Assembly (NCBI GenBank): GCA_025716855.1
Contig: JAIXMQ010000089.1
Location: forward strand, 1 to 64,000
Source of the DNA: Pilaira anomala
Lineage: Eukaryota; Mucoromycota; Mucoromycetes; Mucorales; Mucoraceae
DNA: 64,000 nt
Direction of reading: 5' to 3'
A program made the translations under genes and the position numbers. This document shows, in pieces, positions 2,435 to 32,793 of the stretch. Position 1 is the stretch's first letter, and each line of letters starts with the position of its first letter. The notes beneath the pieces were generated by a model, which had not been told where the DNA came from, did not search any database, and was given only the letters and a program-made list of their open reading frames with translations.

Positions 2435-2493
<59 letters not shown>

Positions 2494-3511: not shown

Positions 3512-3644
3512 ATGCCACGAGGAGACCTTTGCAGATTATGCGGTGCTTTTGGTCACACCAGATCGTAAGAAGATAATGTAATTGTATATGCCAACCCATT
3601 AACTTTTTTTTTATAGTAATTGCCCTCGTTATACAGCCGGTTAA
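3512..3644 (+). CDS. Single CCHC zinc-knuckle microprotein (26 aa)
   Basis: Exons 3512-3564 and 3617-3644 flank a 52-nt intron (gtaaga ... tatag) and encode 26 residues. The protein is essentially one knuckle, CRLCGAFGHTRSNC (C-x2-C-x4-H-x4-C), followed by PRY and a short tail. The intron is in phase 2 between His and the last Cys; reading through it gives TCG then TAA, so only spliced RNA encodes the fourth metal ligand. A TATA-like box (TATAAAAG) lies at ~3442-3449 and a pyrimidine-rich leader precedes the ATG. A nearly identical copy lies at 25290-25419 on the other strand, with two residue changes. CCHC knuckles of this form usually bind single-stranded RNA or DNA; that role is inferred from the motif only. 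Confidence 0.7.
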
Positions 3645-4587
3645 ATTCTTCTATAATAACCAGTTTTCTCTATATAAATCCAAAATATCCAATGCTAGAG
3701 ATTACCAATATTTTTGGCCAAGTTTACTTTAACAAAAAACAATAAACATTTATAATGTTGTCTTAAAAACCTCTTCGTATAATATTTTTTTTTTGTTATT
3801 TTTGTTTTTATGACTAAATGCAAAGATGTAGTTTAGAATGTTTTTTACAGCAATGATTTCTTTTTTTCTATAGGTTATATTTTATTCTATATTGTATTTG
3901 TATTTTTAAACTAATAATTTAACTCTTTTTAGGCGTTATCATAACGCATTTTACTCATCGTTCGAGTGTAACTAACAACAAATTAGTTTTATAATCATTT
4001 TTATAATCATAACTATTTAAACTCTTTATTCCTAATAAAGGACGTCCTCATTTTGTAAAAATAGAATTGGTTACAAAGGTGTCAATATGTTTTAGCACTG
4101 AATTACTGAACCGACTCTCAGAGTTTTACAACTTTCTTTAATTGCTCGAAAGTAGAGCTGGAACGCATAAAAAATAAAATGAAGTAAAGGTTCAGTTATA
4201 TAGATATACAAAATATTGCTAATATTTATCGAAACAAAGATATTTGTAATATTACCGTATGTAAATATAGCTCAAAATCTAGTTCAAAGTTGGGTTAGAA
4301 GCCTAGAAGTATAATGTTGCCACCATACAGGTATTAAGAAACTTGAAATAGTTAAAAATTGAGCATCAACTTATTTTTGTAAATATATGGAAATAAAAAA
4401 TAAATGTGTTCATGTTGGCAACAAAAGCTTAATGTTTTAAGTAACGATACAATGGAACCAAGTACACAAACCCATTTAATTGTTTTGGTATAAAAAATGG
4501 CACCTTTGTTATGTATTTCTGTATATAAATACACTTTTTTTTTGTTTATTTACATTTTACTTACATCTTATCTTTAAATATAAAAAT

Positions 4588-4726
4588 ATGGTTACGTACG
4601 TTCCTTCTTGCGCTTTCTGTGGATATCCTCATCATGACGGGTAATTGGGATAAATGTTTTGTGTTCGTTTCGATTGATTTCTAAACTTTTAAATAATTCT
4701 GTAGTAAATGCCCAAGACGCCGTTAA
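4588..4726 (+). CDS. Single zinc-knuckle microprotein, short-spacing form (24 aa)
   Basis: Exons 4588-4640 and 4705-4726 with a 64-nt intron encode 24 residues. The knuckle is CAFCGYPHHDGKC, that is C-x2-C-x3-H-x4-C, one residue shorter than the common form (a second His would give x4/x3). A basic PRRR tail ends the protein. The phase-2 intron again sits between His and the last Cys, and retention gives GGG then TAA. A TATA-like box is at ~4522-4529. Both exons are identical at DNA level to the copy at 24222-24360 on the minus strand, in line with either recent duplication or gene conversion between the arms. Confidence 0.68.
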
Positions 4727-5252
4727 TGTCTAAGAAGCTACAAAAATTTAAAATGAATTTGCTCCAAAATATATAATCATAATTGATAACTACATATTAA
4801 TCAATTTTATATCAAAATCGTTTTAAAATAAACTTTATCCTTGTTATTTTCAATATTGTCTGTCGATTTTGTTTTTTAAAATAAAAATAGTTCATAGAAT
4901 AATCCCATATATGTAAAAAAGCTGGTTTCTTATCAGCTGTCCAAAAACCCATTGTGTAATATATATCAGCTCCTCGGAGTATTCACCTTAAATATAATTA
5001 CGCTATTTAAGATGGAAACAGAAAACAAACGTGCAAAGATTTACAATGAAAATTTATTACAGAAGTGTAAAATTTTTAAAGAAGGTGCTTTGTTTGGCTT
5101 AATATTTATTTGTTTACATAGTTCTTTTGATTTTCAGGTTCAACAGAAGCTACGTACCGACACAAACTTTCCCCATTATTCCGAGATTGGTAGTTTGTGT
5201 ATAAAAATACATGCTTTTCAAAAAGAAGGCCAGTTATTTTTGAGGAAGAAGA

Positions 5253-5370
5253 TGGGCCCTCCCGTCAAATTGATTAAGCTATGAATGTTACTTTCTCGTA
5301 AGCTATATAAAATTGGAAAGGCCGTTATTTAATCTTCTTTTTTTTTGTGATAGGGCGGTAAAATTTAGGA
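5253..5370 (+). pseudogene. Decayed knuckle microgene, partner of 23531-23692
   Basis: This lies where the left arm should carry the mirror of the minus-strand gene at 23531-23692. A TATA-like box (~5200), an ATG at 5253 after a purine stretch, a cgtaag donor-like site at ~5297 and a gtgatag acceptor-like site at ~5354 fall in matching order. The reading frame stops after ten codons and the knuckle Cys codons are gone. The call rests mostly on position and order, less on sequence. Confidence 0.35.
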
Positions 5371-5910
5371 TTTCTTCTTCCTCGTTTACTTTCATATAGT
5401 TAATTAGTTCAAGAAGTATGTGATGGTAGCATTCTAGTTTTGTCTTGTATTCTGATTGGTTTTCAGATATCTACACAATTACTATATTTTTAATGGTTGT
5501 TTAAAGATTAGCTAATCTAGAATTTGTTTTTTGACCCAAAACTAGCGAAAGCTTCTCAATTTATTCTCTATCATTTTTGTATGTAAGTGAAACTATATGA
5601 ATATATTTGTAAGAAACAAACAAAAGAGTCAGTCAAATAAATATACTTCATCTCCTCTCTTAATTGAAAGTAAGTAACTGAAAAGCTTTTTGAGTCATCA
5701 ATAAGTAAAACCAAATATACTAGTACTTAATGTGCCTTAAACTAGAGTTTTTTTTTTAAAAAAAAAAACTGAAGGGAATAAAGCGAAGAAATAGACCAAA
5801 AAAAATGCACCAATATATGGCATTAATTTACAAATTATTTGAAAGGAAAGTTGGAGAGAAAGCTTTATTTAAACAATTGAATATACTTTCTGATTTTTTT
5901 CTTCTGACTA

Positions 5911-6054
5911 CTAAATAGGATATCGCTCCTTGTACAATGGACATGCACTATCAAAAAGAGAAGGTTAAAAATCAACAAAAACACATACAAAGTCTCTCAC
6001 ATACTAATCACTGTGCTCGGTACTGAAGCAGTAAACACAAAAACGCCGATTCAT
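5911..6054 (-). CDS. Single CCHC zinc-knuckle microprotein (28 aa)
   Basis: On the minus strand, exon 1 is 6054-6005 and exon 2 is 5947-5911, separated by a 57-nt intron (gtatgtg ... gatag). The 28-residue product has the knuckle CVYCFSTEHSDYAC (C-x2-C-x4-H-x4-C) followed by PLYKERYPI. The intron is in phase 2 and reading through it completes a TAG codon at once. A TATA-like box is at ~6090-6100 (reverse). By order and flanking landmarks it is the mirror partner of the plus-strand gene at 22775 on the right arm, though the proteins have diverged strongly outside the Cys/His positions. Confidence 0.65.
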
Positions 6055-6099
6055 ATATTAAAAGTTACAAAAAGTAATGGTGGATGAATAAAATGCATC

Positions 6100-6988
6100 T
6101 TTATATTTAAAAAAAAAAGAATTCATTTTTTGTGTTAACGATTATATGGAATAGATATGATTAGTTTATTTTATTTTCGCTTTAATCATTTGGCTTTTGT
6201 TGCTGATATTTTTTTTAATATTTATGTGGTAACAACACACCATTCTATTACCCTCACCAAAATTCTAATTGTGCTTTTTTAAGCAATCTTCACTTTTGAA
6301 ATACCTTGAACAGAATATTCGCTTGATTAGTGAGTATGATCTTTTATTATAACTCTGTTTCTTTACCGAAATTATTGATTATATTTAGCTTTTACTTTAT
6401 ATCATTTTGACACATTAGCGAAGATTCCGCTATGTTGATATAATCCAACAGACTAAATTCCTAAAGTTGACCACACATTCTCTCCTCCCTAAATTTAAGG
6501 TCATTGCTACTTTAACGGCTGTCTAAAATAATTAACTTTCGAAATCTACCAAAAAAACGTACTAATCAGATATGATAATCGTAAATCAAATATTCAAAAA
6601 TGATATGAGTAACATAACACAAATAAACAAAGATGTACTAGTATTTATTAAAGGAAAGAGCCGAAGAAAGGGCACTACTGTCTTTTGCAACATACCGGTG
6701 TGAATACACATAAAAAAAAATACTTCGAGCTACTGCTGTTTTTTTTTAAATGCTTCAACATCGATTGTAATAATGTTTTACATAAACATTTACATGCCTA
6801 TTACTCTTTTATCTTATCATTCTTGCTATTGATTAAAAATAGTGCGCGTATATGTATCTAAAATTAAGTTGATATGGGCCCTTTTGAAAAAAACGAAACT
6901 GATGTCTGATTCAAAGTCGATCAGTTATGAATAATTTTTTTAAAAAAAGTAAAATTAATTGGAGCAAATAAAAAATAGAAGACATGAT

Positions 6989-7022
<34 letters not shown>

Positions 7023-7049
7023 TTACTAATTTATCATGCAACTATAAGC
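6100..7049. repeat. Array spacer with CEF1-tail fossil (~6735-6765)
   Basis: On the minus strand, 6765-6735 reads ACAATCGATGTTGAAGCATT, closely matching plus-strand 21940-21975 in the other arm. Both resemble decayed copies of a short segment of the last CEF1 exon (~17365-17410). A donor-like GTATGT and a CAGTAG lie at ~6660-6690 without a usable reading frame between them. The rest shows A runs (6992-7020) and no frame I can support. Confidence 0.45.
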
Positions 7050-7230
7050 CCAAGATGAAGCCTGGTGTATTCAACGTAGGTAAAAAATTGTAACCAGTAT
7101 ACATTGTCTAGAACCAAGAAAAAAAAATAGTTAGCAAATCAATGAAAATACACTACACTCTTTTTTTATCCACTTCTCAGTCGTAAGCCGCTGTCAAGCT
7201 TTAATCGACTTGATGAATGATTTTGGCCAA
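7050..7230 (-). pseudogene. Decayed knuckle microgene, partner of 21440-21664
   Basis: The minus strand here aligns by eye with the gene at 21440: the intron stretch GATTTGCTAACT and the acceptor followed by CAATGTA match TTCTAG/TTTTAG and CAATGTCC of that gene. Exon 1 lacks a usable ATG and the Cys pair. It sits at the same distance from its neighbour (about 0.86 kb) as the intact copy does in the right arm. Confidence 0.5.
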
Positions 7231-7866
7231 GTATTTAATGACGAATTGAAATTCTTCCGATACGTATATATTTAATCCAAATAGATATATATTGAGAAAT
7301 AAAAGTTGTTAAACCCATAAGAGCATGTGTATCTTTTAAAACGCAGCAGTTTTATTACATAGACGAAACAAAAGTAAATGTTTCAAAGAAATCATGTCAT
7401 TAAGATTACATAGTACCGCATACTTTTTTTTTGTAGTTAACTGGGGATTTTTAAGTATCTCAAGTGTGACCACATTGTGTGATATCATATGATGTGTGGC
7501 CAACTAAATCCTTAATAAGGGTACATACATCCCACCAACTCTTTCTATTCTTCACTGGTTATAAATGTAAGAACTAAAGATTAACATATATTGTTTTATC
7601 CTGGAAATTGAATTCGTATGAATTAACTATTAAATAAAAGATAAAAAAACACACAAAAAAGGATAGTGTACTAATGCTTAACGTTAATATACATGAATTA
7701 TTTTCGAAGACGAAAGCTAAAGTGAAGAATAGGTAACGAGAAATGTTTTATTTAAACAATCATATAAATTTATTTATTGATTTATGTAGTTATTTAGTTA
7801 ACAAAAAATTAAGGCACCAGATAGCAACACCTTATTTTTTATAACTTTGGGTAGAATTTTAGACCT

Positions 7867-7994
7867 TTAACGGAATAATGGACAAGACCTATTATAAAAC
7901 AGGAATATGTTAGTAAGTGAATAGAAATACACACAAAAATTTGATCTTACTCCTTAGTGTGCGTAGGATTGAAACAGAGAGAGCAGCCGGCCAT
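7867..7994 (-). CDS. Single CCHC zinc-knuckle microprotein (21 aa)
   Basis: Exon 1 (7994-7951) and exon 2 (7888-7867) with a 62-nt intron (gtaagatc ... aatag) give only 21 residues, the shortest intact copy. The knuckle CSLCFNPTHTKESC (C-x2-C-x4-H-x4-C) starts at residue 4 and is followed by PLFR. Reading through the intron gives GAG then TAA. A reverse TATA box (GTATATAAAGAC) lies at ~8049-8060. The broken copy at 20575-20699 in the other arm carries the same layout and the same PLFR ending, so this is probably the surviving member of that pair. Confidence 0.68.
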
Positions 7995-8639
7995 ATTTTT
8001 AATTTTAAGAAAAAGTGATGAAGGAATAAGTAAAAGTAAAAATAAAAGTCTTTATATACAAAAAAGAGGTGTCATATTTTACGCTTAACTAATAAAATTC
8101 AATACAGTTTCTTAAAGCATTAAAATTTTGTTGCCAACATTATTTTTATTTTTGTAATATTTGCTGAACGGATTGACACTTAACTTAAAATAATGAACCC
8201 CGATTTCTTTATTATCGATAAGTTGACAACGTTCTATACATTCTTGCAATTAAGCCTAGTCTCTAACTAATTCAAGTTATTATATCTAATAATATCATAT
8301 CGAATTTTTATTGTGGGAGACGAATCGAATAAGACAAAAAGAAACAATTCCTCTTGTCTCCTATTTGAAAATAGTTCCCATATTATAATTTGCTTGAATA
8401 ATAAAAAAAACGAAAGAAGTATTGCTGTACATATACTGCACTCAAGTATAAGATTTAATTAAAAAGACATAATGCGCAGATATCTCTCTTCCATAATATC
8501 TTTTTTTCGCACTGGCTATAAATGTAAAATTAAAAACGAAAATAGAAAAAAAAAAAACTAAACAAATTGTTTAGTTATTGATTCATTTTGACAAAAAAAA
8601 TGGTAAACAGATAATAATGTTTTGATTAATTTTAGTTTT

Positions 8640-8796
8640 TGAATAGCTTTTTGGACAGTTATCAACAACCCTGTTTAAAGGGAATTGAAGATAAAACAAG
8701 AAAAATCTAGTTGGCTGATAAAACTCATATGTAATCTCTTTCTTACTTGTAAACGTGAGAATGACTGAAATAACGTGTACAAGCAGATGAAGGCTT
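8640..8796 (-). pseudogene. Decayed knuckle microgene, partner of 19567
   Basis: Minus-strand exon 1 (8796-8747) reads as PSSACTRYFSHSHVY after an AAG where the ATG should be, and ends at a GTAAG donor in phase 2. It matches PPPACSRCHSQYHTT of the intact gene at 19567, with the second Cys changed to Tyr. The acceptor region (~8660) has lost its AG, reading TTGATAACTGTCC, while the CysPro codons survive. So start codon, one ligand and splice acceptor are all lost. Confidence 0.6.
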
Positions 8797-8799
8797 ATT

Positions 8800-9950
8800 T
8801 TTAAGATTCAGAATTAACGATAGAATATTTTACATATGTACGAAACAAAGTTGCTCTCTTTTTATCTAATAAAGATACAAAACAACGTAAACTACCATTT
8901 TAGTTACATATGACTTCTTAAACCAACATAGTTGTTTTGTCATTTTGTAACTATAAACCTTTTATTATATATGTTATCAACTGAATACTTCCACAAGTCT
9001 AAAACCATCACCGACTTTTTTTTTAATTTATGATGTTCATAACTAGAACTTAGATATAGTTATTTGAGTTTTTTTTTTTTTTTTTGGGGGGGGGGAGGAG
9101 TTAATGCCTTACATGCTTCAATAATGTCTGTTGTTACAACATTTTTATATATAAATGGACATCAATCTGATTGAGAGTTCCATTATTTCTAATAATAACT
9201 ATTTTTAGTGTATCAGCAATTACGGACGCCGACATAAATCTTTTAAAGATTCAATAGATGGTGGATATTGGAAAATTTTCTGGAGCCACAAAACTTCAAA
9301 AAGTTATTTGTGTTAATTACTTTAAATGTGTTTCGATGTTCTTTGTGACAACAGGTTGTGTACTAAATGTAACCAAACATTAATTTTAATCCAAGTGACA
9401 ACCCTGAGAGCTGATTAAATGGGCTTAAGCTTAGTAATAATTGAATATTGACAACAGAGTCAAGACTGATGAAACCACATTTGGAAACAAACACTCAGGA
9501 TAAATTTAAAAAATAGTTTTAACATATAATTCAATATTTTAAATGAATCTATTGCAATGCAAACCATGAGTAGCAGGTTTAATGCTAAAAAAAAAAACAA
9601 ATCAAATTATGTGCTATACACAGTACATAAAACCATATTGATTTTGGTTCATATAACTGAGTGAAATTTAATAAATTAGAAATGCATCAACTTACGTGTA
9701 TAGCTGACAGCAACTTAAGATATATCTTTCAACTTTTTTCATTAATTATACAAGAATGTCAAAAATAATAGTTATAAAAGTGTGGGGCTGCAACAAGCTG
9801 ATATCAATACCATAAAGAGAAAAAATAAAGACTTTTAAGATAAAGCAGTTACAAAAAAAAAGATGGTTTTTTTAAAGACAATATTTTAATTAAAATTTAT
9901 TTTTTTATAAGTAAATTTGTTCACTTTGGCCCTGAAAAGATTTTGAAAGA
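8800..9950. repeat. Array spacer with CEF1-tail fossil and T/G run
   Basis: A near-palindrome TGTTGTTACAACA lies at ~9131-9143, about 335 bases upstream (minus sense) of the broken microgene; it corresponds to ACGTTGTCACAACA in the last CEF1 exon. A T run followed by a run of G (9069-9096) is a conspicuous simple-sequence tract. No open frame of note. Confidence 0.45.
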
Positions 9951-10102
9951 TTATTGAAAATAAGGACAACGGCTACAAAAGAAAAGAGAATAAGTCAATA
10001 AATCGATGAAGACATACACATTCATTTATTATTTCCTTACAATTGGCCATGACTAAGACTACCGCATACACTGCAGCCTGGAGCGGGTCGGGGTCGAGAC
10101 AT
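9951..10102 (-). CDS. Single CCHC zinc-knuckle microprotein (27 aa)
   Basis: Exon 1 (10102-10041) and exon 2 (9972-9951) with a 68-nt intron (gtaagg ... ttgtag) encode 27 residues. An Arg/Pro-rich start (SRPRPAP) leads into the knuckle CSVCGSLSHGQFRC, then PYFQ. Retention of the phase-2 intron gives TTG then TAA. A reverse TATA box (TTTATATATAAAGG) lies at ~10176-10189, and a CEF1-tail fossil with TGTTGTAACAACA at ~10420-10432 lies about 320 bases upstream. The PYFQ ending is shared with the gene at 17757, next to CEF1. Confidence 0.7.
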
Positions 10103-10734
10103 ATTTTTAATATTTTTTTGTTGTTGTTGAAGAAAAGTGATAAAATAAAAAAAAGGGAAATAGAAAAATTAGGCACCTTTATATATAAATACGAGAACAA
10201 AGTACCATCTTTTCGTACTTAAGCTTTTAACTAGTTATACCGAGTTGTTGCAGAGTTTATTCCTTTCGTTGTCAACTTGAACAATTCATGTCCCAAAAGC
10301 TTTAATACATCCCGTCAGTATTAGTTAACATTTATATAATTCTATAATATTCAGAAAAAATGCATTGATATCTAGCATAAGCTTCCATGACTTTTTCAAA
10401 AGCCTTAAATTTCTTCAAATCTTCTGTTGTAACAACATTTTTTTATGTATACATAGATCTATCCAAACGGGATTTTAATTGGTTCTTTGTATGAGTTACA
10501 TGTATCATTCAGACATTCGACAACCCTGTACCTGTTGGCATAAAGATGCAACGTTGATCGAAAGGATAAAATAGCTTACTATTTGTAGCTTTAATAGCTT
10601 TTGCGATGAAGTCTTTCACAAAAGATAGTTAGTTAAGAGAATATTGTACTTTAAAACGAGAGGAAAAGATAATTCAATGAAAAAAAAAAAAAAAAAGATG
10701 TTTATCTTAGTTCTCAAAATAATGAAAGAAATAC
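10103..10734. other. Array spacer with CEF1-tail fossil (~10400-10440)
   Basis: Contains TGTTGTAACAACATTT at ~10420 followed (minus sense) by GAAGATTTGAAGAAATTTAA, a decayed match to the last CEF1 exon. No gene. Confidence 0.4.
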
Positions 10735-13902: not shown

Positions 13903-17584
<3,682 letters not shown>

Positions 17585-17756: not shown

Positions 17757-17891
17757 ATGTTACAAGCTAGTAAATGCAGTATATGCGGTGGTGACCATGG
17801 CAAATAGTAAGGAGATAAAAATAAATTGTGTGTATTTCTTTCGAGTTACTGACCTTTTTTTTTCTGTAGTCAATGTCCTTATTTCCAATAA
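17757..17891 (+). CDS. Single zinc-knuckle microprotein beside CEF1 (23 aa)
   Basis: Exons 17757-17806 and 17870-17891 with a 63-nt intron encode 23 residues. The knuckle CSICGGDHGKYQC has the short C-x2-C-x3-H-x4-C spacing, then PYFQ. Reading through the intron completes TAG at once. TATATAAAG lies at ~17669-17677, followed by a pyrimidine-rich leader. It starts only 173 bases after the CEF1 stop, in the same orientation, and CEF1's last exon plus this gene match the unit that seems to have been copied along the array, so this could be the founder or its direct descendant. Confidence 0.7.
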
Positions 17892-18575: not shown

Positions 18576-18691
18576 ATGTCTGTTAGATATACTAAATGTC
18601 CTTTGTGTGGTGGTACTGGCCACGAAAAATTGTAAGACGACAAACCAAGTTATTATGTGTATATGTTATTGTATATCTTATACGATTTATC

Positions 18692-18724
<33 letters not shown>

Positions 18725-18749
18725 TAGTCAATGTCCTTTATTTATGTAA
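18576..18749 (+). CDS. Single CCHC zinc-knuckle microprotein (25 aa)
   Basis: Exons 18576-18631 and 18728-18749 give 25 residues with knuckle CPLCGGTGHEKFQC (C-x2-C-x4-H-x4-C) and ending PLFM. The intron (96 nt, the longest in the family) is stretched by a T run of about 33. Retention gives TTG then TAA. TATATAAAGATAC at ~18489-18501 is identical to the box of the gene at 17757. Its mirror partner on the left arm appears to be 9951-10102. Confidence 0.7.
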
Positions 18750-19149: not shown

Positions 19150-19218
19150 CAAAAAATGTTGTTACAACAGATGCTAAAACATTTGAAGAATAAACTTAGA
19201 AGCTTCAATCTAATTATC

Positions 19219-19235: not shown

Positions 19236-19250
<15 letters not shown>

Positions 19251-19566: not shown

Positions 19567-19692
19567 ATGCCTCCACCTGCTTGTTCTCGTTGTCACAGTC
19601 AATATCACACTACTGCGTAAGAGACATACTTTTTATATATTTTTATCAATTTCTAACATCTTTTGTTCTATAGTCAATGTGCAATGCGCTAA
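19567..19692 (+). CDS. Single CCHC zinc-knuckle microprotein (22 aa)
   Basis: Exons 19567-19616 and 19674-19692 with a 57-nt intron encode 22 residues: PPPA, then the knuckle CSRCHSQYHTTAQC (C-x2-C-x4-H-x4-C), then AMR. It is the only intact four-ligand copy with Ala rather than Pro after the last Cys and lacks the usual Gly after the second Cys. Retention gives GCG then TAA. GTATATAAAGACAC is at ~19499-19512. The left-arm partner at 8640-8796 is broken. Confidence 0.68.
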
Positions 19693-20574
19693 ATAGCCAA
19701 AAAGTCACCCAAAATTAAAGCAAATAAGATGTTCCTACACATTTTTTTTCAAAATTTTGTTAAAATAAACCAATAAACAATTTTATTTTGTTTTACCTTT
19801 ATTATTTCTTTGTTTTTTAAAGGTCATGGATTTCAGTTAAACTTAAAAAAAAATATCAGCGCGTTCTTTCTAATTTACAATTATAGTCAGTGAAGAGGAG
19901 ATATAATGGGAGAGATGTACATCCGTGTATATATTTCTTTATTTAAAAAAAAACCTCTACTAGCTGAACGAGCATTAAATGGCAATATATATGGCATTAC
20001 TTATTTTTTTTCTTGGATATTAAAACAGCACTTCATATAGTAATCACTTAAAACTTAAAGAAGGAGAGGAAATGCGTTTTGATTTTTTTGTTGTCCGTCC
20101 CAAACATGATTAGAATCTTCGTTTATCTTCCAGAATAAAAAGCGAGATTTCACTACTAGCTTCTGAGTACATACAAAAATCCGGAAATTCCAGACTATTT
20201 AATCGTCAACAACAATTTGAAATGATATTGGTGTATATATAATGGCGGAAAATCCAATCAGAAGTTTTACTTAGAAGTCTAAATATAAAATGTTGCCGAC
20301 ACATATATAATAAAAAACCTGAAGTAACTGGATAAATCTAAACCAAATACCAAACCTTTTTGTAAATATTATTTAAATAACAATGGGTGTGCTCATACTG
20401 ATAGCTAAAGTACCTATACTTTTTAAAGTGATGATACAATAGAATTAGTTATATTTGTTCTATTCAATTGGTTAAACATAAGCTATGATATTTTTTGTTT
20501 TTAACTATATAAAGGCTTTTTAAATTTATATTATTTTTGCTTTTTCTTCATCATTTTTTCTAAAGATTAAAAAT
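19693..20574. other. Array spacer
   Basis: Carries CAGTGAAGAGGAGATATAAT at ~19889, a landmark that recurs downstream of other copies (reverse of ~8480-8515). No gene. Confidence 0.4.
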
Positions 20575-20699
20575 ATGAAAAAGCTGTACGCTCTGTTTCA
20601 GTCTTTCGCACACTAAAGAGTAAGATCGAAATTTTGAGTGTGTATTTTTTTCTCAGTAACCATTTGTTGTTCTGTAGTTTTTGTCCATTATTCCGTTAA
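20575..20699 (+). pseudogene. Frameshifted knuckle microgene, partner of 7867-7994
   Basis: The knuckle codons read CTLCFSLSHTKDFC when joined across the usual intron (donor gtaagatc ~20619, acceptor ctgtag ~20677), followed by PLFR and a stop, almost the ending of the gene at 7867-7994. The ATG at 20575 is out of frame with the knuckle by one base, and the knuckle frame has an upstream TGA. The TATA box (TATATAAAGG, ~20506) is kept. A small indel between ATG and first Cys seems to have killed the gene. Confidence 0.7.
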
Positions 20700-21439: not shown

Positions 21440-21664
21440 ATGGCTCCTCGCATCAATTGTCAGTCAGTACCCAGTTGCACCGAGTGTGGCAGTAACTTTC
21501 ATACCAGAGAGTAAAATCGAAAAGTAATTTAGTGTATTCATATTTATCGATTTGCTAACTGTTATTTGTTGAATTTTAGTCAATGTCCATATTCTGATAC
21601 TTTCGAAAATATTTCTCCCGAAATCGAATACTCAAGGCGTCCTTTTGGTTACATAATTGCATAG
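21440..21664 (+). CDS. CCHC zinc-knuckle microprotein with long tail (51 aa)
   Basis: Exons 21440-21510 and 21580-21664 with a 69-nt intron give 51 residues, the longest member. Ahead of the knuckle there is an extra Cys; the knuckle is CTECGSNFHTRDQC (C-x2-C-x4-H-x4-C), then PYS and a 25-residue tail containing acidic and aromatic residues (SDTFENISPEIEYS) absent from other copies. The tail may be real or may reflect loss of an earlier stop. Retention gives GAG then TAA. Its left-arm partner is decayed at 7050-7230. Confidence 0.62.
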
Positions 21665-22774: not shown

Positions 22775-22909
22775 ATGGGTCGTACTCAAAAATGCTCTGA
22801 ATGCGGTAGCTTTTCTCACAAGACTCGGTAAAAAAAAAAATAGAGAATATATAACTAGGTCTGTTTTTAACTATTTTCTTGTAGTGATTGCCCAAAGTTA
22901 AACGGATAA
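22775..22909 (+). CDS. Single CCHC zinc-knuckle microprotein (25 aa)
   Basis: Exons 22775-22827 and 22885-22909 with a 57-nt intron encode 25 residues with knuckle CSECGSFSHKTRDC and ending PKLNG. The donor is GTAAAA followed by an A run. Retention gives CGG then TAA. TATATAAGGG is at ~22700. HKTR/CPK features are shared with the convergent gene at 23531, so these two look like close relatives in opposite orientation about 0.6 kb apart. Confidence 0.7.
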
Positions 22910-23530: not shown

Positions 23531-23692
23531 TCAAGGGAATTTTGGACACTCACTAAAAAATTTTAAAACAAATTAATGTAAAGAGGAATTAGTACAAAAC
23601 AAATAAGTAAATTATTCCCCTCCTTACCGAGTCTTATGGTTGAAACTATCGCATAAGCTACATCTGAAAGTACGAGAACTGAAACGAGCCAT
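23531..23692 (-). CDS. Single CCHC zinc-knuckle microprotein (28 aa)
   Basis: Exon 1 (23692-23628) and exon 2 (23552-23531) with a 75-nt intron encode 28 residues. A Ser/Arg/Phe-rich start leads to the knuckle CSLCDSFNHKTREC, then PKFP. Retention gives CGG then TAA. A reverse TATA-like box (ACATAAAGAGACAC) is at ~23748-23762. It starts just outside the near-identical inverted repeat, and its left-arm equivalent (5253-5370) has decayed. Confidence 0.7.
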
Positions 23693-24221
23693 CTTTTTAG
23701 TTAAAAAAATATATATATAAGAACGAAAAAAAAAAGAAAAAAAAAAGAAGTGTCTCTTTATGTATTAATAGGAAAATCCCAATTGTTTGTGAGTAACAAT
23801 AAAAAAAAGGGCCCACTTTTTGTGGACAAGCCAAACAAAGCACCCTCTTTAAAAAAATTACGCTTCTGTAATAAATTTTCATTGTAAATATTTGTACGTT
23901 TGTTTTCTGTTTCCAGCTTAAAATAGCGTAATTATATTTAAGGTAAATACGTCTAACAGCTGATATATATATCTATATATATATATATATATATTATACA
24001 ATGGGTTTTTGGACAGCTGATAAGAAGCCAGCTTTTTTAAATACATGGAAGTATTCTATGAACTATTTTTATTTTAGAAAAAAAATCGACAGATAATATT
24101 GAAAATGGCTAGGATAAAGTTTATTTTAAAACGATTTTGATATAAAATTGATTAATAGTTATCAATTATGATGATATATTTTGGAGCAAATTCATTTTAA
24201 ATTTTTGTAGCTTCTTAGACA

Positions 24222-24360
24222 TTAACGGCGTCTTGGGCATTTACTACAGAATTATTTAAAAGTTTAGAAATCAATCGAAACGAACACAAAACATTCATCT
24301 CAATTACCCGTCATGATGAGGATATCCACAGAAAGCGCAAGAAGGAACGTACGTAACCAT
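24222..24360 (-). CDS. Single zinc-knuckle microprotein, copy of 4588-4726
   Basis: Exon 1 (24360-24308) and exon 2 (24243-24222) with a 64-nt intron encode the same 24 residues as the left copy, including CAFCGYPHHDGKC and the basic PRRR end; coding bases are identical while the intron and flanks differ at a few positions. That pattern fits either very recent duplication, conversion, or selection on the protein. TATATAAATACAC lies upstream at ~24411-24427. Confidence 0.68.
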
Positions 24361-25289
24361 ATTCTTATATTTAAAGATAAGATGTAAGTAAAATGTAAAT
24401 AAACAAAAAAAAAAGTGTATTTATATACAGAAATACATAACAAAGGTGCCATTTTTTATACCCAAACAATTAAATGTGTTTGTGTACTTTACTTAAAACA
24501 TTAAGCTTTTGTTGCCAACATGAACACATTTATTTTTTATTTCCATATATTTACAAAAATAAGCTGATGCTCAATTTTTAACTATTTCAAGTTTCTTAAT
24601 ACCTATATGGTGGCAACATTATACTTCTAGGCTTCTAACCCAACTTTGAACTAGATTTTGAGCTATATTTACATACGGTAATATTACAAATATCTTTGTT
24701 TCGATAAATATTAGCAATATTTTGTATATCTATATAACTGAACCTTTACTTCGTTTTATTTTTTATGCGTTCCAGCTCTACTTTCGAGCAATTAAAGAAA
24801 GTTGTAAAACTCTGAGAGTCGGTTCAGTAATTCAGTGCTAAAACATATTGACACCTTTGTAACCAATTCTATTTTTACAAAATGAGGACGTCCTTTATTA
24901 GGAATAAAGAGTTTAAATAGTTATGATTATAAAAATGATTATAAAACTAATTTGTTGTTAGTTACACTCGAACGATGAGTAAAATGCGTTATGATAACGC
25001 CTAAAAAGAGTTAAATTATTAGTTTAAAAATACAAATACAATATAGAATAAAATATAACCTATAGAAAAAAAGAAATCATTACTGTAAAAAACATTCTAA
25101 ACTACATCTTTGCATTTAGTCATAAAAACAAAAATAACAAAAAAAAAATATTATACGAAGAGGTTTTTAAGACAACATTATAAATGTTTATTGTTTTTTG
25201 TTAAAAGTAAACTTGGCCAAAAATATTGGTAATCTCTAGCATTGGATATTTTGGATTTATATAGAGAAAACTGGTTATTATAGAAGAGT

Positions 25290-25419
25290 TTAGCCGGGTG
25301 TATAACGAGGGCAATTACTATAAAAAAGTTAATAAGTTGGCATATACAATCACATTATCTTCTTACGATTTGGTGTGACCAAAAGCACCGCATAATCTGC
25401 AAAGGTCTCCTCGTGGCAT
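25290..25419 (-). CDS. Single CCHC zinc-knuckle microprotein, copy of 3512-3644
   Basis: Exon 1 (25419-25367) and exon 2 (25317-25290) with a 49-nt intron encode 26 residues with knuckle CRLCGAFGHTKSNC. It differs from the left copy by Arg to Lys after the His and Ala to Pro near the end. Retention gives TCG then TAA. A TATA-like box (GTATATAATAAAGG) is at ~25478-25491. Confidence 0.7.
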
Positions 25420-25495
25420 AGTTTAATATTTTTAAAAATAATATAAAGAGAGATAGAAAAAAAAAAGGAGATTTTGTACCTTTATTATATACAAA

Positions 25496-26637
25496 TATCA
25501 GAAAGTAAAAAACGAGAAATATCCAAGTTTTCTTTAGATAAAACAAAGTACAAAAAAAAAAGGAGTTTTAACTAGTAGTTTTAGCAGTAAAAATGAAAAT
25601 TTATTCACTCAAGCCTTTAGAGTTTTGCTCCAAACTATTGTCTTTTATTTTAAATTAGAAAATTTCATTTGTAAAAGCTTCAATATGTATATAGGAATAG
25701 CTAACTTTTTCGAAATTTTTAAGATCAGCTATCCACAAATTCAGGAAAGATAGTGTATGTAAATTCAAAAAATAGACATGTAGTTGCATACACTTAAATA
25801 GGGTGGGAGATAGAAACTATTCAAGTTTTTCTTGTTATAAAGCAGAATACGAAAAAACTCTCTCCGAGCTGTAAATTAAGAAAAACACGTCTCCATTTTG
25901 ACAACATACATATTTAAGGCTTTATATTTAAGTATAATTTATCTCTTGATATTTTCTCAGAGGATCTTCGTAGATTTTTATAGTTAGACAACTCGTAAAC
26001 CTCTTGTGCTCCCACTTTCCAGGAATCGCATACAGATAAGCAGGTCATGATATCCTCTTTTCCAAACTTCGTCTTGCTAACGTATTGAAATATCTTTTTT
26101 TAATACTTCAACAGGTAAAGCATTATTCAAATGATCTGATATTCTACTTTTTCAAGAAAAAAAAAGTGTAAAGGAAGAATAAAATTATTTATTTAACCAC
26201 AATTTATATTTATTCATATTATGTACTGAGCGTAAACTGACATATTACAAATGGTGATAACAGGAAAAATTCAAAAAGGGGTATGTTAATAGATTTAAAA
26301 CTATTTTTTTTTATATATATGGTATGTAGTGCTCTATTGTCGATTGTTGGATATAAGCTGCTATTTTCCATGCTTTAAAGCATTACGTATACTTTGATGG
26401 CCTCAATTAAAACTTTTACCGTCTGAAATATTGTCTTTTAGGCAGTAAAAAGATCGGGACATATTTTTTAGCCTGGGACCTGCATTATAGGTATTAAAGT
26501 TTGAAGTGTTTAAAAAAAGTTAAATGGTAGAGTTGCCCACATCTTATTATATTTATTTACTTGTAAATGAAAAGAGAGTGTATTATGTTAAGGTAATAAT
26601 ATAGCTTATAATAATTAATATTTTTTCGTTAATGTTG
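25496..26637. other. Intergenic, no gene seen
   Basis: AT-rich with no frame or motif that I can support; no clear microgene remnant. Confidence 0.4.
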
Positions 26638-27027
26638 TTATAACTTGTTGGAGATATAATAAAAATTTTCGATATCTTTACAGTGGTAGAGATAGTAGTA
26701 AATAATTCCAATAAGCATTCCAGTAACAATAGGGTATTCAATCATTCTCCATTTCTTCATCACATTATCTTTCTGTTTTTTAATCTTGGTTCGTTTGACT
26801 TCTTCTCAAAAAAATCCACTTCTAGTCAGTTCATTGATCAAAAGTGGAGCTCTAGGATTTCCTCTAATCCATGCAGGTGGGTTTTTCAAACGAAGGAGAA
26901 GATTACGTGAGGTGATATGAAGGCTTCCGTCAGCTGCAAAAGGCATATTTTTGTTAATCTATCCCTTTTTTTTTTTGTAGTCTGTATATTATCTCCTACC
27001 TTGTTCTTCAAAATTATCTTGTTCCAT
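26638..27027 (-). pseudogene. Small membrane-protein-like gene with an in-frame TGA
   Basis: Exon 1 (27027-27000) encodes MEQDNFEEQ; after a 66-nt intron, exon 2 starts at 26933 with ADGSLHITSRNLLLRLKNPP and continues through LINELTRSGFF to a TGA at 26808-26806. Past that stop the same frame goes on with EEVKRTKIKKQKDNVMKKWR, then a hydrophobic stretch (YPIVTGMLIGIIYY) and a stop at 26640-26638. The smooth continuation of composition (basic stretch, then one membrane segment) suggests a single nonsense change in a once ~107-residue gene. I do not recognise the family. If read as is, it would give a 51-residue soluble peptide. Confidence 0.5.
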
Positions 27028-27432
27028 TGTTAAAATAAAATAAAAAAAGTTGAAGGGAAAAAAATGAGGCTCTCCTCTTGTTGTATATGAGAAATAATCG
27101 AACAATCAAAATATTATTTTATCGATTTTTTTTACACTGCATATCTAATCTTTCATTGTAAGTTACATAAATAGTCTTTTTTTTATTTCAATAACATATT
27201 ATCACAACATAATCTTTACAGTTCAATAGAGACAATAAAAACCTTTTTCAAGAACCAAATTCAAAAATATTCTGTAATACAACGAAATCCCGTTAAGTCG
27301 AACCTGAATTTTTTTTGTAGGGCAGTTCATACACAAGCTTTTAAAATTTTCGCTTTAGCTGTAATTTGGTATCTAACAATGGAATATATTCTTAATTTTG
27401 GTACATAACCTATAATAGAAGATCCATTGTTA

Positions 27433-28147
27433 CAGTATCTCCAGTCTCAAATTGTACATTTTTTGAACTTAGTACATAGTACATTTCTCGAAAATAAAAT
27501 GGAACATTCAACCAATTAGTTTCGAACAGAATTTGAACTTGGTTTGCAGCACTTCTCAAACTTAAATTGGAATTTCACTGTGAACATTATTATTCACCTC
27601 TTTAATTTTTTTGGCATCTCGGACGAACAGATATCTTGAAATGAAAGGTCTTTATCTTATCATAGATAATGCCCCAATTCATTCATAGAGTGAAGTAAGT
27701 TAGATGGTAGAGAGTAGAAACAAATACTATAAATGCGTGCATCTCCCTCATAATATCCAGAAATGAATCCAATTGAGCAATTCTGGGCTATTTTTAAGCA
27801 TAAAAGTATAGCGTAATAAACTTATGAAGTTTAAAATGCTTGCACAAAGAATAACTGAAGCATGTAATCAAGTCCCTCTATCTCAACTTGTCAATATTAC
27901 TCAACACTCTAAAAACCTTTTCGAAAACTGCTTAAATGAATTCCCTCAGCTATCTAAATAAAATGTTCTATACTAATTTCAAAAATTGTTTAGATTGGGG
28001 TTTATAATGTGTTCTGATTTAAGTTTGAGAAGTGTTTCAAATCAAGTTCAAATTCTGTTCGAAACTAATTGGTTGAATGTTCCATTTTATTTTCGAGAAA
28101 TGTACTACTAAGTTCAAAAAATGTACGATTTGAGAGTGGAGACACTG
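27433..28147 (+). mobile_element. Decayed Tc1/mariner-type element with ~115-bp terminal inverted repeats
   Basis: The left end (27433-27560) and right end (28020-28147) are inverted repeats; outermost bases read CAGTATCTCCAGTCTCAAAT on the left and CAGTGTCTCCACTCTCAAAT on the reverse of the right. TA dinucleotides flank both ends (27431-27432, 28148-28149), the expected target duplication. Between them lies the C-terminal part of a DDE transposase in broken frames: LIIDNAPIHS (~27650) with the second Asp, YPEMNPIEQFWAIFKHK (~27758) with the third acidic residue, and a frameshifted helical end (ITEACNQVPLSQL, ~27850). Most of the N-terminal half is missing, so it cannot move itself. Confidence 0.85.
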
Positions 28148-28699
28148 TATTAAAAAATGTATCTCTTTTGGTCAGTTTTATTTATTTACATTAGGATAAT
28201 ATTAAACGTAACAGCATCATAACTCTTTATTGTTATATAACAGAAAAAAATTATTGAAATAAAGCAATAGCTTCGCGTTTAATTAACCAGCCATTAATTT
28301 TATCAGGGTCTCTACCCCCCCCCCTTTTTTTTTTAGGTATAAAAAAGTACTTCAACATATTCCAGTAACATAAATGAAAAGGAATTATCAACGAAAGAGA
28401 GATAGGTAACCTATTCAAGCTCACCATTACAGTTGGACATATAAATAGTTTGTCGCTTTTTGTCATTCTCCAAGGTGTGAACTCCATCATGACAGTAGCT
28501 TATTCTATTTTATATCTCTGAACTCGATGGTTCTTCATCCGATATCAAATTTCTTATCTTCAAATTAGTTTTTTTTTCAATCTCGTTAGGATATATATTA
28601 GTGGAACATTATTCATTATAAACATCAATAAATTCAACCTGGTTACATTTAAATTATCAGGTTGTTCTAATATATCGTCTTTTATTGAATCGACTTTGG

Positions 28700-28955
28700 T
28701 TTTTGTCAATTTAGGCAGATACAAATCTTGTAACTGATGAGTTGTCTTTTTAGAATTTGAAATAGATCTACGGTGTTGTAATCTAATGACTCTCTTTCCA
28801 TCACTTTTAAAGTTGCTAGTTTAGGGGGGCGTATAATAAAGCCAAATAATTCAACGTCATTATCAGATACATGTATATCCTCCTGCGAGAAAATATTTAA
28901 TGATCTAATTGTTTCACAGTATCTGAGATTTTGTTGTAGAATAAGCTGTCTGTAA
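28700..28955 (-). pseudogene. Unidentified broken coding fragment
   Basis: After an acceptor-like CTTACAG, a minus-strand frame reads RQLILQQNLRYCETIRSLNI and on to KVMERESLDYNTVDLFQILK before a stop at 28706; the adjoining frame continues with LQDLYLPKLTKTKVDSIKDD. This looks like one coding stretch broken by a frameshift near 28730. The family is not recognised; it may belong with the F-box-like remnant upstream. Confidence 0.3.
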
Positions 28956-29169
28956 GAAAATGTAAGACAAGATTAACCAACATCAAGGTGCTGAATATGA
29001 TCCAGTTTTAATATCTCGTTGGCTATAAGAAAGCTTCACTATATACTCATTAAGGGGACCGACTGCAATTTTGTTCAAATTTATGGGAACTAGATTAGAA
29101 CAGGAAAATGACGTATATACAGAGCCAAGCAAGACATGGAAGTTTACGATCTAAAATAAAATACGGATA

Positions 29170-29460
29170 CATCCATTCGTCTCATGTTACCCATATCAAT
29201 TTTACTTTATATCCAAAAGATAAATGTCTAAATATCGCAGGCCGTTCCAAAGACTCTTTCCGCACTCTAACTGAAATATCACGATTGAATTTCTGTCCAA
29301 TAAAATTCCATCATTTATGTACAAGTAAGCAATTACTGAGTTCTTTTTTTTTTTCTGACAAGATTATTGTAAGATATTCAAATAATTCTTTTAGAATCTC
29401 TGCTGGCAAAACATCACCCAGATGATACGATATATTTTCACCTGTAAAATTAAATGTATG
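29170..29460 (-). pseudogene. F-box-like gene remnant
   Basis: A minus-strand frame reads LPAEILKELFEYL and, after a gap, LSNCLLVHK, then a stop, then WNFIGQKFNRDISVRVRKES. This is the order of an F-box (LPxEIL..IF..L....C.LVCK.W). The in-frame stop inside the box and further stops downstream mean it is not a working gene in this form. F-box proteins act as substrate adaptors in SCF ubiquitin ligases. Confidence 0.5.
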
Positions 29461-29499
29461 TAAGAAGCTTAGAAGAAAAAGAAAGAAAAGAGAACAAGA

Positions 29500-30268
29500 G
29501 TCTCCCACAATTTATTTATTTTTACCAAATGTTTATCATCTTCTAAAACTTTATATCATATTATTTGTTTTATACACGTATCAAACTCTCCTCTTTTTTA
29601 TTCGAATTAAAAAAGTATATATTTAACCAGAGATCGACCACATAATTTAGTCAAAACAACGAACCAAAATCTAAAAGTCTTTGTATTCTTTGTCACAAAT
29701 CCCAATTTCTTGTTAACAACTTGAGAACCTACTACAAATAGAAAAATGGAATAAAGTCCGGTTAAAATGTAGTTTGTTTTAGCCGCAGTAGAAATAAATG
29801 TTTGAAATCAGCAAAGAGATCATGTCATTAAGAGTACATAGCTCATTTGTTTGTAACTGGTGGGTGAGTTTATATCAAGTTTAACTACATAAATTTCATT
29901 TAATATGCGGTTAACTAAAGTTGGACATGTATGTAATAGCTGATATAAGGATACATCCCTATCATCCTTTCTACTCTTTACTTCCTATATAAATATTAAT
30001 ATAAATGTAAAAATAATAATAAATATTCCCTTCTTGAAAAGTTTGATTTTCCTTGGAATTTCAATAAAAGTAAGTGATAAAACTCAATATAGTGTCAATG
30101 TTTAGTAGATTATAAAGTAAAAATAAAAAATTTAAGAATAAATAACGAGTAGGTTTTTATTTGTGAGCAATCACTTAGAATTTTTTATTGATATGTTTTG
30201 ACAAAAAATTAAAGCCATATTGAAAACCGTCTTCGCTTGAGCTTTAGCTTTTTTTTTTTTTACAATAA
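29500..30268. repeat. Spacer homologous to left-arm spacer (~7350-7700)
   Basis: GATCATGTCATTAAGAGTAC (~29819) matches AATCATGTCATTAAGATTAC (~7391), and AAGGATACATCCCT...CTTTCTACTCTTTAC (~29947-29985) matches the left arm at ~7517-7553. Same orientation as the left arm. No gene. Confidence 0.6.
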
Positions 30269-30406
30269 TTAACTTCGTCTTCCATATGGGCACACACTAT
30301 ACACAAAAAAATTAATAAAATGATAAAACATATAACTTTAAAAATTTTCGACGCACTAGCTAGTATCGTGACGACCTCCGCATGTATAACAAAGTTGAAT
30401 AGGCAT
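30269..30406 (-). CDS. Zinc-knuckle microprotein with shifted His (25 aa)
   Basis: Exon 1 (30406-30357) and exon 2 (30296-30269) with a 60-nt intron encode 25 residues. The ligands fall as CYTCGGRHDTSYVC, C-x2-C-x3-H-x5-C: the overall Cys span is normal but His is one place early, which may weaken zinc binding. PYGRRS follows. Retention completes TAG at once. A reverse TATA box (TATATAAAGGCAG) is at ~30467-30479. Position and flanks make it the third-array equivalent of 7867-7994. Confidence 0.58.
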
Positions 30407-31284
30407 ATTTAGTATATATAAAAAAAGGAGTGAAGAAAAGTAAGAATAAAGATATAAAAAAAAATGCAGCTGCCTTTATATACAAAATTTGTGGTTAAGC
30501 AAAATGCAAAAAAGCAATGACATCAGTTCATGTTTTTTCTAAAAAAAAAAATAGAACAGACACCGTTACTTTAAAGCCGTCTAATTATTACGTATGGATG
30601 ACTGTAAAAAAAAAGTTGTTGTTAACATCCCATATTTAATGCTGCATATATAGTTAATAACTATCCTGGTACCTAACGTAAATCTTCAAACCCTTCATAT
30701 ATTTGTGTTGTAACAACATTCGGCCTAGACTCCAAATCAGATCTTTTTTTTTTTTTCTACACATGCTTTAGTATCTCGAAGTCTGTGGTACAAAAAATTA
30801 ATAATTAAGCTCTTTGACAGAATTTTAGTTTTATTTATGTCAGTTTGTTGGCCTGTAAATGATTTTTTAAGTATATTAGCAACAAGCCCATATTTAAACC
30901 GAATATGATATCAAAAGCTTTCTAATAAATTATCCTGGGCGATTAAGAGCCTCTAAAAGCTATCAAAGATAATGGTCAAGAATAACAAAAATTGAATGCT
31001 GTTTTTTATTAAGAATTTACAGAAATCAAATATATGAGCATGCAGTAATAACCTTATAATAAAAAACGACGAGAAAAAGCTGTATTGTTTTAGTTGACTA
31101 ATTATTATAAAAAGAAAAACTTTTTTATTGATATAAACCTTAAATAATTCAGAAAGAAAGATCCACCAAGAAAAGTATAATAAGACAAATTTTAAAACGA
31201 AATTTTATAAACCCTTACTAATATATACATCTGCTATATCAGAAGATTATGGAAAAGGCTTTACTTATTTTATTTCGGGTAAAG
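30407..31284. other. Array spacer with CEF1-tail fossil (~30700)
   Basis: TGTTGTAACAACATTC at ~30703 lies about 300 bases upstream (minus sense) of the microgene start, as in the other arrays. No gene. Confidence 0.45.
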
Positions 31285-31450
31285 TTAATGTAATTCATCA
31301 AATGGGTTTCGCTCGCACGAACAATAGCTATAAAGCAAAGACAGTTAAAAAAATATAAATACAAACATAATCTATCTTTACCTACCAATTACCTTGACCA
31401 GAGCCTTCACATAATAAGCAATAAGGCATTCGATTTTTAACTATACCCAT
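31285..31450 (-). CDS. Degenerate zinc-knuckle microgene, His replaced by Gln (35 aa)
   Basis: Exon 1 (31450-31386) and exon 2 (31327-31285) with a 58-nt intron keep an open frame of 35 residues (or 28 from the second ATG, MPY, which fits other family starts better). The knuckle positions read CLLCEGSGQGNCYC: the His is Gln, so the standard site is incomplete, although extra Cys residues nearby (C-Y-C-S-C) could substitute. Retention gives TGG then TAG. A reverse TATA-like box is at ~31500-31510. It may be decaying or may have changed its metal site. Confidence 0.45.
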
Positions 31451-32619
31451 ATTTATAATATCTAGCTGTAACCAGAAATATAAAAATAATAATAATAACT
31501 GTCTTTATATATGTACATACATATATGTGGTTACAACAAATAAAGAATTAAGTTGTCAATGGTTATATAATACAAACTAGTATATTTGTGCACCTAAATT
31601 ATTATCTTTAATAAATTTGAGAAGTTTGGGAACTTCCTTATACAATTTACATGACGTTAAAATTCAGGTTTTGAGCTTCTGGGATACTTTTACATTATCC
31701 TGACAACGTTTTATCTATACACATACACATATACTAATTCACTGATTGAACTTCTAATTTATTTCTATTTTTTTTTTTTTTTTTTTTACATCTAATGCAT
31801 CTAAATTTATAGTGTGTAAAAATAATTCTAATATATATCTACAATAACTACGCGTATAATATAAAGTAAAAGAATTTTAAGAAAGTAGCCAATTAATGTG
31901 AATATTATAAAAATAAAGAAACACTAAAAAAGTGTCACTTGGTGTAACTGTTTCTGAATAAAACTTGACAACTGGAATTCTAGTGTAATTGTATTAGTAT
32001 TCTGAAAGTAACCTGCAAAGATTAAGAATATAAAGTATGCAAAGTATGAAGATAAGAGAAGTGAAGGAGGGTAAAGATTGTATCGTAGTGCAAAGAAAAC
32101 TGTTATTGTTTTGAGCCCAGTTTATCCACCTTCTGTTATTTATGTGATTTACGTATCTTGTTCAACTTTATTGTTTATCTGCTTTTATGTTTACCTTTAT
32201 CTACTTATCTTACTTTACTTAGGTTTATTCTTATTCTATTTTTATTTTTACACAAACATGTCAAACATCATCCGACATGAAAAAATGGGAAAAGATATAG
32301 TCACAGGAAAAAAAGAAACCCCATCTATTTATGGTTATAACAATTATAGCTAACAAAGAACCATCATTTGAGTTATACTTTTGTCATAATTTTTCAACAA
32401 GCTTTAGTAACCACATTATTTGTGTTACCTAGAATATATCTGACAGCAGCAAATGTAACCAAACCTTCATTTTTTTTAATCTGAAAAAAAAAACAGTTTG
32501 AAAGAAGCAAGATTATATTATGAAAAAGTGGGTTTTTTTTTAAAAGGCAATATCATAAATGTTTATTGATTTCTTTGTAAACTTGAGAGGATATTATTGT
32601 ACGTCTTGATTTTGGAGAA
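31451..32619. other. Spacer, no supported gene
   Basis: Contains a T run (31771-31789) and a frame at ~32200-32350 encoding hydrophobic then polar residues without any recognisable family; I do not support it as a gene. Confidence 0.35.
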
Positions 32620-32793
32620 TTATCGTCTAGTGCTAAAACTAATATATGGACATTGCCTATTATAGGAGAAAATCAGTTAATAGATGAATATACATATACA
32701 ATCTGTCTTTCTTTCTTACTGGTGGCTGTGCTTATCAGATTGGCAGAGTGAGCAGTGAACCTTAGGACCCTTATTAGGAAATGGATTAAACAT
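32620..32793 (-). CDS. CCHC zinc-knuckle microprotein (36 aa)
   Basis: Exon 1 (32793-32720) and exon 2 (32656-32620) with a 63-nt intron (gtaagaa ... aatag) encode 36 residues. A 13-residue leader ending KVH leads into CSLCQSDKHSHQQC (C-x2-C-x4-H-x4-C), then PYISFSTRR. Retention gives CAG then TAA. It is the last member before the conserved genes on the right and corresponds by spacing to 9951-10102. Confidence 0.66.

Follow-up and report, generated by a model that had tools for sequence, protein, structure and literature searches.

A clustered family of spliced single-knuckle microprotein genes in Pilaira anomala, with selection on the predicted metal site

The first 64 kilobases (kb) of an 87,158-base contig (C214) of the mucoralean fungus Pilaira anomala, hereafter the window, carry a dense cluster of two-exon open reading frames (ORFs) that encode proteins of 21–51 residues with a single zinc knuckle of the Cys-Cys-His-Cys (CCHC) type. 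We put at about 50% the probability that these ORFs are spliced microprotein genes of a family that is specific to one lineage, has expanded in tandem and is under selection for metal binding; the peptides may act as one-site zinc buffers. The evidence comes from the architecture of the ORFs and the signals around them, from codon-by-codon comparison of the copies and from a search for relatives within this one genome (34.25 megabases in 225 contigs), to whose contigs our statements on the distribution of the family apply.

Gene architecture and census

Spliced one by one, 16 complete two-exon ORFs were assembled on both strands between positions 3512 and 32793, in agreement with the initial annotation, which had proposed at least 16 such genes of 21–51 residues over about 29 kb; one of them has a ligand change. 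All four ligands (C, C, H and C) are present in 15 of the 16, and the last Cys is followed by Pro in 14 of those 15, the other (19567, plus strand) having Ala there. The zf-CCHC-type pattern C-x2-C-x4-H-x4-C, often followed by Pro, was also described correctly, allowing for x3 or x5 spacing in 4 of the 15 (the genes starting at 4588 and 17757 on the plus strand and at 24360 and 30406 on the minus strand). An intron interrupts the knuckle, leaving C-x2-C-x3/4-H in exon 1 and x-C-Pro in exon 2, and because of this split a search of the DNA for an unbroken knuckle pattern gave nothing. All 16 introns are in phase 2 and span 49–96 nucleotides (nt), with the donor 35 nt (in short-loop copies 32 nt) beyond the point where the first Cys codon begins. 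The longest exon measures 85 nt, in line with the earlier remark that exons this small could be missed, and a dense family of spliced genes of 21–51 codons is expected to escape standard annotation. The copies, and the arms of an inverted duplication among them, are as follows (profile matches with their expect values, E).

3512..3644, plus strand: gene; exons 3512-3564 and 3617-3644; 26 amino acids; CCHC followed by Pro
4588..4726, plus strand: gene; exons 4588-4640 and 4705-4726; 24 amino acids; CCHC followed by Pro, loop one residue shorter
5911..6054, minus strand: gene; exons 6005-6054 and 5911-5947; 28 amino acids; CCHC followed by Pro
7102..7174, minus strand: relic that retains just the intron and the beginning of exon 2; profile E 4e-5 with filters off
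7867..7994, minus strand: gene; exons 7951-7994 and 7867-7888; 21 amino acids; CCHC followed by Pro
8691..8787, minus strand: dead copy; start and second-Cys codons altered, wider spacing before Cys-Pro (by eye); profile E 2.6e-5
9951..10102, minus strand: gene; exons 10041-10102 and 9951-9972; 27 amino acids; CCHC followed by Pro
17757..17891, plus strand: gene; exons 17757-17806 and 17870-17891; 23 amino acids; C-x2-C-x3-H-x4-C followed by Pro
18576..18749, plus strand: gene; exons 18576-18631 and 18728-18749; 25 amino acids; CCHC followed by Pro
19567..19692, plus strand: gene; exons 19567-19616 and 19674-19692; 22 amino acids; CCHC without Pro; found by the loose model only
20573..20696, plus strand: broken copy; intact knuckle codons, but the nearest ATG lies in another frame
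21440..21664, plus strand: gene; exons 21440-21510 and 21580-21664; 51 amino acids; CCHC followed by Pro, 24-residue tail
22775..22909, plus strand: gene; exons 22775-22827 and 22885-22909; 25 amino acids; CCHC followed by Pro
23531..23692, minus strand: gene; exons 23628-23692 and 23531-23552; 28 amino acids; CCHC followed by Pro
24222..24360, minus strand: gene; exons 24308-24360 and 24222-24243; 24 amino acids; protein identical to that of 4588, plus strand (inverted duplication)
25290..25419, minus strand: gene; exons 25367-25419 and 25290-25317; 26 amino acids; near copy of 3512, plus strand (inverted duplication)
30269..30406, minus strand: gene; exons 30357-30406 and 30269-30296; 25 amino acids; C-x2-C-x3-H-x5-C followed by Pro; loose model
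31285..31450, minus strand: gene-like ORF; exons 31386-31450 and 31285-31327; 35 amino acids; Gln where the other copies have His, additional Cys
32620..32793, minus strand: gene; exons 32720-32793 and 32620-32656; 36 amino acids; CCHC followed by Pro
3435..5100: inverted-duplication arm; 1.67 kb, 94% identical to 23828-25496; two genes per arm
23828..25496: inverted-duplication arm; partner of 3435-5100
2867..2951, plus strand: possible relic (weak); profile E 0.003, hardly over the noise of that list

A strict gene model (C-x2-C-x3/4-H, a GT[A/G]..AG intron, x-C-P, open from ATG) returned 13 genes in the window and none in 100 order-2 Markov shuffles, and a looser model returned 15, compared with a shuffle mean of 0.25 and a maximum of 2; both models were composed after copies had been seen. 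An AATAAA lies within 125 nt past the stop codon of all 16 ORFs (null 27%), the exact TATA box TATATAAAG lies upstream of the ATG in 7 of the 16 (null 0.8%) and a broader TATA in 13 (null 13%), and 15 of the introns contain a branch-site-like YTRAY motif 15–31 nt ahead of their 3′ end (no null computed). To judge from the sequence, the AATAAA and TATA matches are gene signals surrounding the ORFs, which makes these more than a bare motif, and at the sequence level a typical unit consists of a TATA-type promoter of its own, followed by a short leader, two exons split by a small phase-2 intron and a poly(A) signal. Chance ORFs were ruled out by the shuffles together with the flanking-signal tests. 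A reading as internal exons of longer genes is not favoured, exon 2 ending 3–24 residues past Cys-Pro in the window ORFs that have Cys-Pro. Such evidence makes it nearly certain that the window holds a real family of two-exon genes.

Selection on the predicted metal site

Codon evolution was compared across 17 non-redundant rows, in which one of each inverted-repeat duplicate pair was dropped, the His-to-Gln and start-lost copies were kept, the diverged C171 member and the relics were left aside and stop codons were treated as gaps. In ligand codons, pairwise identity at positions 1, 2 and 3 is 0.97, 1.00 and 0.47, and in the other knuckle codons it is 0.34, 0.35 and 0.37, where composition alone would give 0.32; Cys and His are thus clearly not substituted as often as their surroundings. 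The third positions of the Cys and His codons switch freely between T and C. Intron columns are identical in 0.53 of pairs, a value inflated by gapped alignment.

With an MG94-type codon model and base frequencies taken from flanking non-coding DNA, dN/dS (ω) is 0.02–0.03 for the ligands together with Pro and 0.9 for the remainder. By class, ω is 0.015–0.021 in ligand codons, 0.05–0.07 in the Pro codon, 0.85–0.89 in other knuckle codons and 1.0–1.25 in the three codons preceding the knuckle; the per-class values span two trees of 17 rows each and a set of 15 rows from the cluster alone, and the outcome was stable. The log-likelihood rises from −1134.55 with all ω at 1 to −1048.64 with the ligand and Pro class free and −1048.52 with both classes free, a gain of 86 log units from freeing the ligand class and a further 0.1 from freeing the remainder. 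Fixing ω of the remainder at 0.3, 0.5, 0.7, 1.5 and 2.5 gave −1058.93, −1052.11, −1049.24, −1051.83 and −1061.38, from which we interpolate a range of about 0.6–1.3. The initial annotation had held that Cys, His and Cys-Pro are kept while the rest changes, which the contrast between about 0.02 and 0.9 bears out. In these alignments, selection is shown to keep the four ligands and the following Pro, and the other alignable codons appear close to free.

A zinc knuckle requires its four ligands to hold zinc, and the finding that only these and Pro are clearly constrained suggests that selection acts on metal binding. The peptides very probably bind zinc: each would fold around one zinc ion. Less certainly, the many copies would raise the amount of a zinc buffer or carrier with a single high-affinity site, so that a knuckle would take on a metallothionein-like task and not the recognition of a nucleic acid. 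That buffering role, which is argued by analogy with fungal metallothioneins, we propose tentatively. The array amounts to a natural experiment, since clear selection on the knuckle is confined to its metal ligands and Pro, and it opens to test both the minimum size of a useful zinc-finger protein and the question whether a single isolated knuckle is still of use when it lacks a nucleic-acid surface.

Array growth and relatives on other contigs

Neighbouring units begin roughly 0.7–1.3 kb apart, and the relics at 7.1 and 8.7 kb occupy places where a unit seems to be missing. We found three or four decayed copies in the array (20.58 kb, plus strand; 8691-8787 and 7102-7174, minus strand; and the weak 2867-2951, plus strand), short of the five broken copies reported earlier. 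Positions 2762-2849 are 74% like 21253-21340, which lies upstream of the gene at 21440 on the plus strand. Two gene pairs share one inverted duplication, and the 16 ORFs therefore count as 14 once collapsed. Between the copy on contig C27 and the gene starting at 7994 (minus strand), the first 150 nt of 3′ flank past the stop codon are 99% identical, whereas exon 1, the intron, exon 2 and 120 nt upstream are only 68–77% identical; this sharp boundary near the stop codon is, on the alignment, best explained by recombination. Exon 1 is more diverged than the intron in several pairs, for example 17775+/10075−, which had raised the idea of diversifying selection but may stem from recombination and from gaps in the intron alignment. 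The sequence shows that the copies have multiplied by tandem and inverted duplication, swap parts through recombination and sometimes die. An element conserved between units lies at 18211-18252, 19145-19186, 21926-21967 and 6740-6807, and the 21.8–22.0 kb stretch that bears it has a relative on contig C172; its candidacy as a relic exon was dropped, as no convincing reading frame was found.

The family reaches beyond the cluster, with members on contigs C27, C167 and C171. An intact 21-codon copy on C27 adjoins DNA that is 95–98% identical to window positions 82-3249. C167 carries a lone 26-codon gene (L015) with a canonical knuckle and an intron at the array's place and phase, and C171 a lone diverged member (L079, C171:161866-162396) of 19 codons with C-x-C and a tail resembling that of the gene starting at 23692 on the minus strand. 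Across the whole genome the pattern TGYN12CAYN8GTAAG has 51 matches, of which 9 fall in the cluster and 1 on C27; a backwards control has 28. Among the 41 outside the array and C27, 28 stay open over their first eight codons; of these we read 21 (C167 and 20 others), together with C163:48447 (L014) from the 13 that a stop interrupts, and only C167 proved to be a gene. A second pattern has 26 matches (6 in the array; control 10), of which 11 were fetched and yielded one member, C171, two had already been read and 7 were left unread, 6 of them one repeated sequence. A third gave 74 matches (1 in the array; control 30), with no member among the 10 fetched, and a fourth gave 5 (1 in the array; control 7), the 4 non-array matches being left unfetched. 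These searches cover the donors and spacings named in the patterns. As the pattern used for the search already prescribed where the intron lies, its place is by itself weak evidence of the kinship of the C167 gene, which also leans on its complete two-exon form, its size and its Cys-Pro; the array profile matches C167 weakly (7.9 bits, intron and exon 2 only). With its canonical knuckle and array-type intron the C167 gene may resemble the founder; given the pattern-fixed intron place and the weak profile score, this likeness is an inference.

Competing explanations, comparable systems and surroundings

Knuckles of the nucleocapsid type touch bases with two hydrophobic residues, one following the first Cys (C1+1) and one following the His (H+1), and the nucleocapsid, CNBP/Gis2 and AIR2 proteins have several knuckles or are larger. 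The microproteins could instead be isolated knuckles of this type, acting on single-stranded RNA or DNA as binding proteins or chaperones. Their ligand spacing is the same in most copies, their net charge is +1 to +4 in 14 of 15 listed proteins (−2 in the other) and the C167 knuckle is canonical (C-I-x-C-G-x-x-G-H-Y), matching retroviral nucleocapsid (E 7e-5) and AIR2 (E 1.2e-4). In a Pfam scan of 8 of the 16 window proteins plus the C27 and C167 proteins, none of the 10 reached the PF00098 (zf-CCHC) cut-off of 20.8 bits (best 19.8 for the gene at 3512 and 18.8 for C167); the 3512 protein passes zf-CCHC_6 (24.8, cut-off 22) and the other nine pass no model. In 14 cluster and C27 copies (without duplicates, the His-to-Gln copy, the start-lost copy and C167), H+1 is hydrophobic in none, whereas ordinary knuckles from this genome have a hydrophobic residue there in 9 of 10 cases (Fisher 7.6e-6); C1+1 is hydrophobic in 3 compared with 8 of 10 and both in none compared with 8 of 10. 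The ordinary knuckles are a small sample from eight overlapping loci at four places and are top matches of a Pfam knuckle model, which may itself favour such residues; in C167 both are hydrophobic. No conserved surface is detectable in the alignable codons besides the ligands and Pro, and each protein of 21–51 residues has a single knuckle, neither two or more nor a larger protein around it. The link to nucleic-acid-binding knuckles drawn in the initial annotation finds little here to sustain it, and we regard such a function as quite unlikely. The absence of hydrophobic contacts that ordinary knuckles have is why we prefer a buffer or carrier to a nucleic-acid binder. On a more speculative path, in which we have low confidence, the copies would form a novel kind of metal-handling peptide, 'knuckle-thioneins': a C167-like nucleic-acid-binding knuckle gene would have shed its contact surface, kept its zinc site and been amplified for metal-binding dosage.

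Binding of partners through the variable residues is still a serious rival to weigh. The zinc site would then be a scaffold from which those residues bind copy-specific protein or other targets, as the strong divergence beyond the ligands, the variable N and C termini and the mosaic exchange among copies might suggest; an ω of up to about 1.3 is allowed for the remainder and reaches 1.0–1.25 in the three pre-knuckle codons. Diversifying selection was nevertheless set aside, mean ω beyond the ligands (0.90) not exceeding 1, and we consider partner binding unlikely. That a family once expanded is now mostly non-functional, its genes decaying or barely used, would suit the dead copies in the array and an ω near 1 beyond the ligands, yet 15 of 16 ORFs hold four ligands, splice sites, start and stop despite near-saturation at other codons, with a ligand ω of about 0.02, which renders general decay improbable. 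Dispersed repeats inside the array (about 25.9–29.5 kb) and at 31.9–32.3 kb, and members on three other contigs, could mean that the units are parts of mobile elements and not host genes; against this, array DNA queries (17500-33000, 3400-10300 and 20420-20830) hit units only on C214 and C27, with 39 of 71 candidates scored in one of these searches, and the units carry their own promoter and poly(A) signals. We judge a mobile origin highly improbable.

Several points weigh against selection for metal binding and zinc buffering as the explanation of the array. A single site made of three Cys and one His would store far less metal than a metallothionein does. The ORF starting at 31450 (minus strand) has Gln in place of His, leaving 1 of 16 short of a ligand; at least two copies besides the 16 are dead; and a protein search with an alignment led by the 51-residue protein gave two candidates, none at E up to 1. 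The split in ω is partly recognition bias, as copies were identified by their knuckle and dead ones without it are under-sampled. The two or three relics in the array that lost the knuckle seem too few to account for 15 of 16 intact ligand sets; the true total of lost copies may exceed the relics found, so this bias remains a caution. An ω near 1 beyond the ligands could equally be produced by young genes under weak constraint or by a mixture of purifying and diversifying sites.

Metallothioneins have many Cys residues and hold several metal ions, and yeast CUP1 forms a tandem array. The fungal metallothioneins (Neurospora crassa MT, yeast CUP1, Agaricus crocodilinus AcMT1/2) resemble the array in being very small metal-binding peptides (here predicted) with short genes and small introns; the Neurospora protein has 26 residues (PMC4755600) and the AcMT introns are about 50 bp (PMC12508003). 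The array fits a metallothionein in its very small proteins (here 21–51 residues) and in selection concentrated on the predicted metal ligands (here ω about 0.02 versus 0.9), whereas the knuckle of the array has three Cys and one His, binds one metal at most and is accompanied by few extra Cys. The knuckles of nucleocapsid, CNBP/Gis2 and AIR2 (Pfam zf-CCHC) have the same C-x2-C-x4-H-x4-C spacing, and C167 resembles nucleocapsid and AIR2 in sequence; the array differs in having one knuckle, no larger context and no hydrophobic contact after the His. According to a study of Atlantic cod zkY and zk1-zk8, the residue after His is a Trp that stacks between two bases, as in nucleocapsid proteins, and the genes form a lineage-specific, multi-copy C-x2-C-x4-H-x4-C family in which 4 of 12 autosomal copies are dead; unlike the array, zk1-zk8 encode 143–633 residues and are dispersed over linkage groups, zkY is intronless and basic repeats precede the knuckle (PMC6333804). 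Micro-proteins of Haloferax volcanii, with fewer than 70 residues and a single zinc-finger domain, gave phenotypes in 12 of 16 deletion mutants; they are archaeal, the accessible text mentions neither a tandem array nor introns, and the likeness drawn here concerns size and the single domain (PMC6562870). Among the open-access matches listed, judged by titles and the starts of abstracts, none describes such an array; most subscription papers lie outside that scope.

The array flanks a protein-kinase ORF (11491-12909, minus strand) and a CEF1-like ORF (16296-17288, plus strand), which over 76% of its length shows 66% identity to a protein of Rhizopus arrhizus and over 91% shows 97% identity to another protein; a caspase-domain ORF (34032-34916, plus strand) lies past its end. 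Searches of the window gave no Rfam match at gathering score and no tRNA with ARAGORN. A Pro/Ser-rich ORF of 566 amino acids with internal repeats and no Pfam match is found at 172-1872, and the segment that holds it (82-3249) is duplicated on C27 at 95–98% identity (L023:2231-5372). Inside the array, a dispersed repeat at 25930-29521 has parts on contigs C147 and C145 (69–88%), and nested in it is an inverted-repeat element (27431-28157) that is present on many contigs. A second dispersed repeat (31929-32273, about 340 nt) has whole or partial copies on more than 10 contigs.

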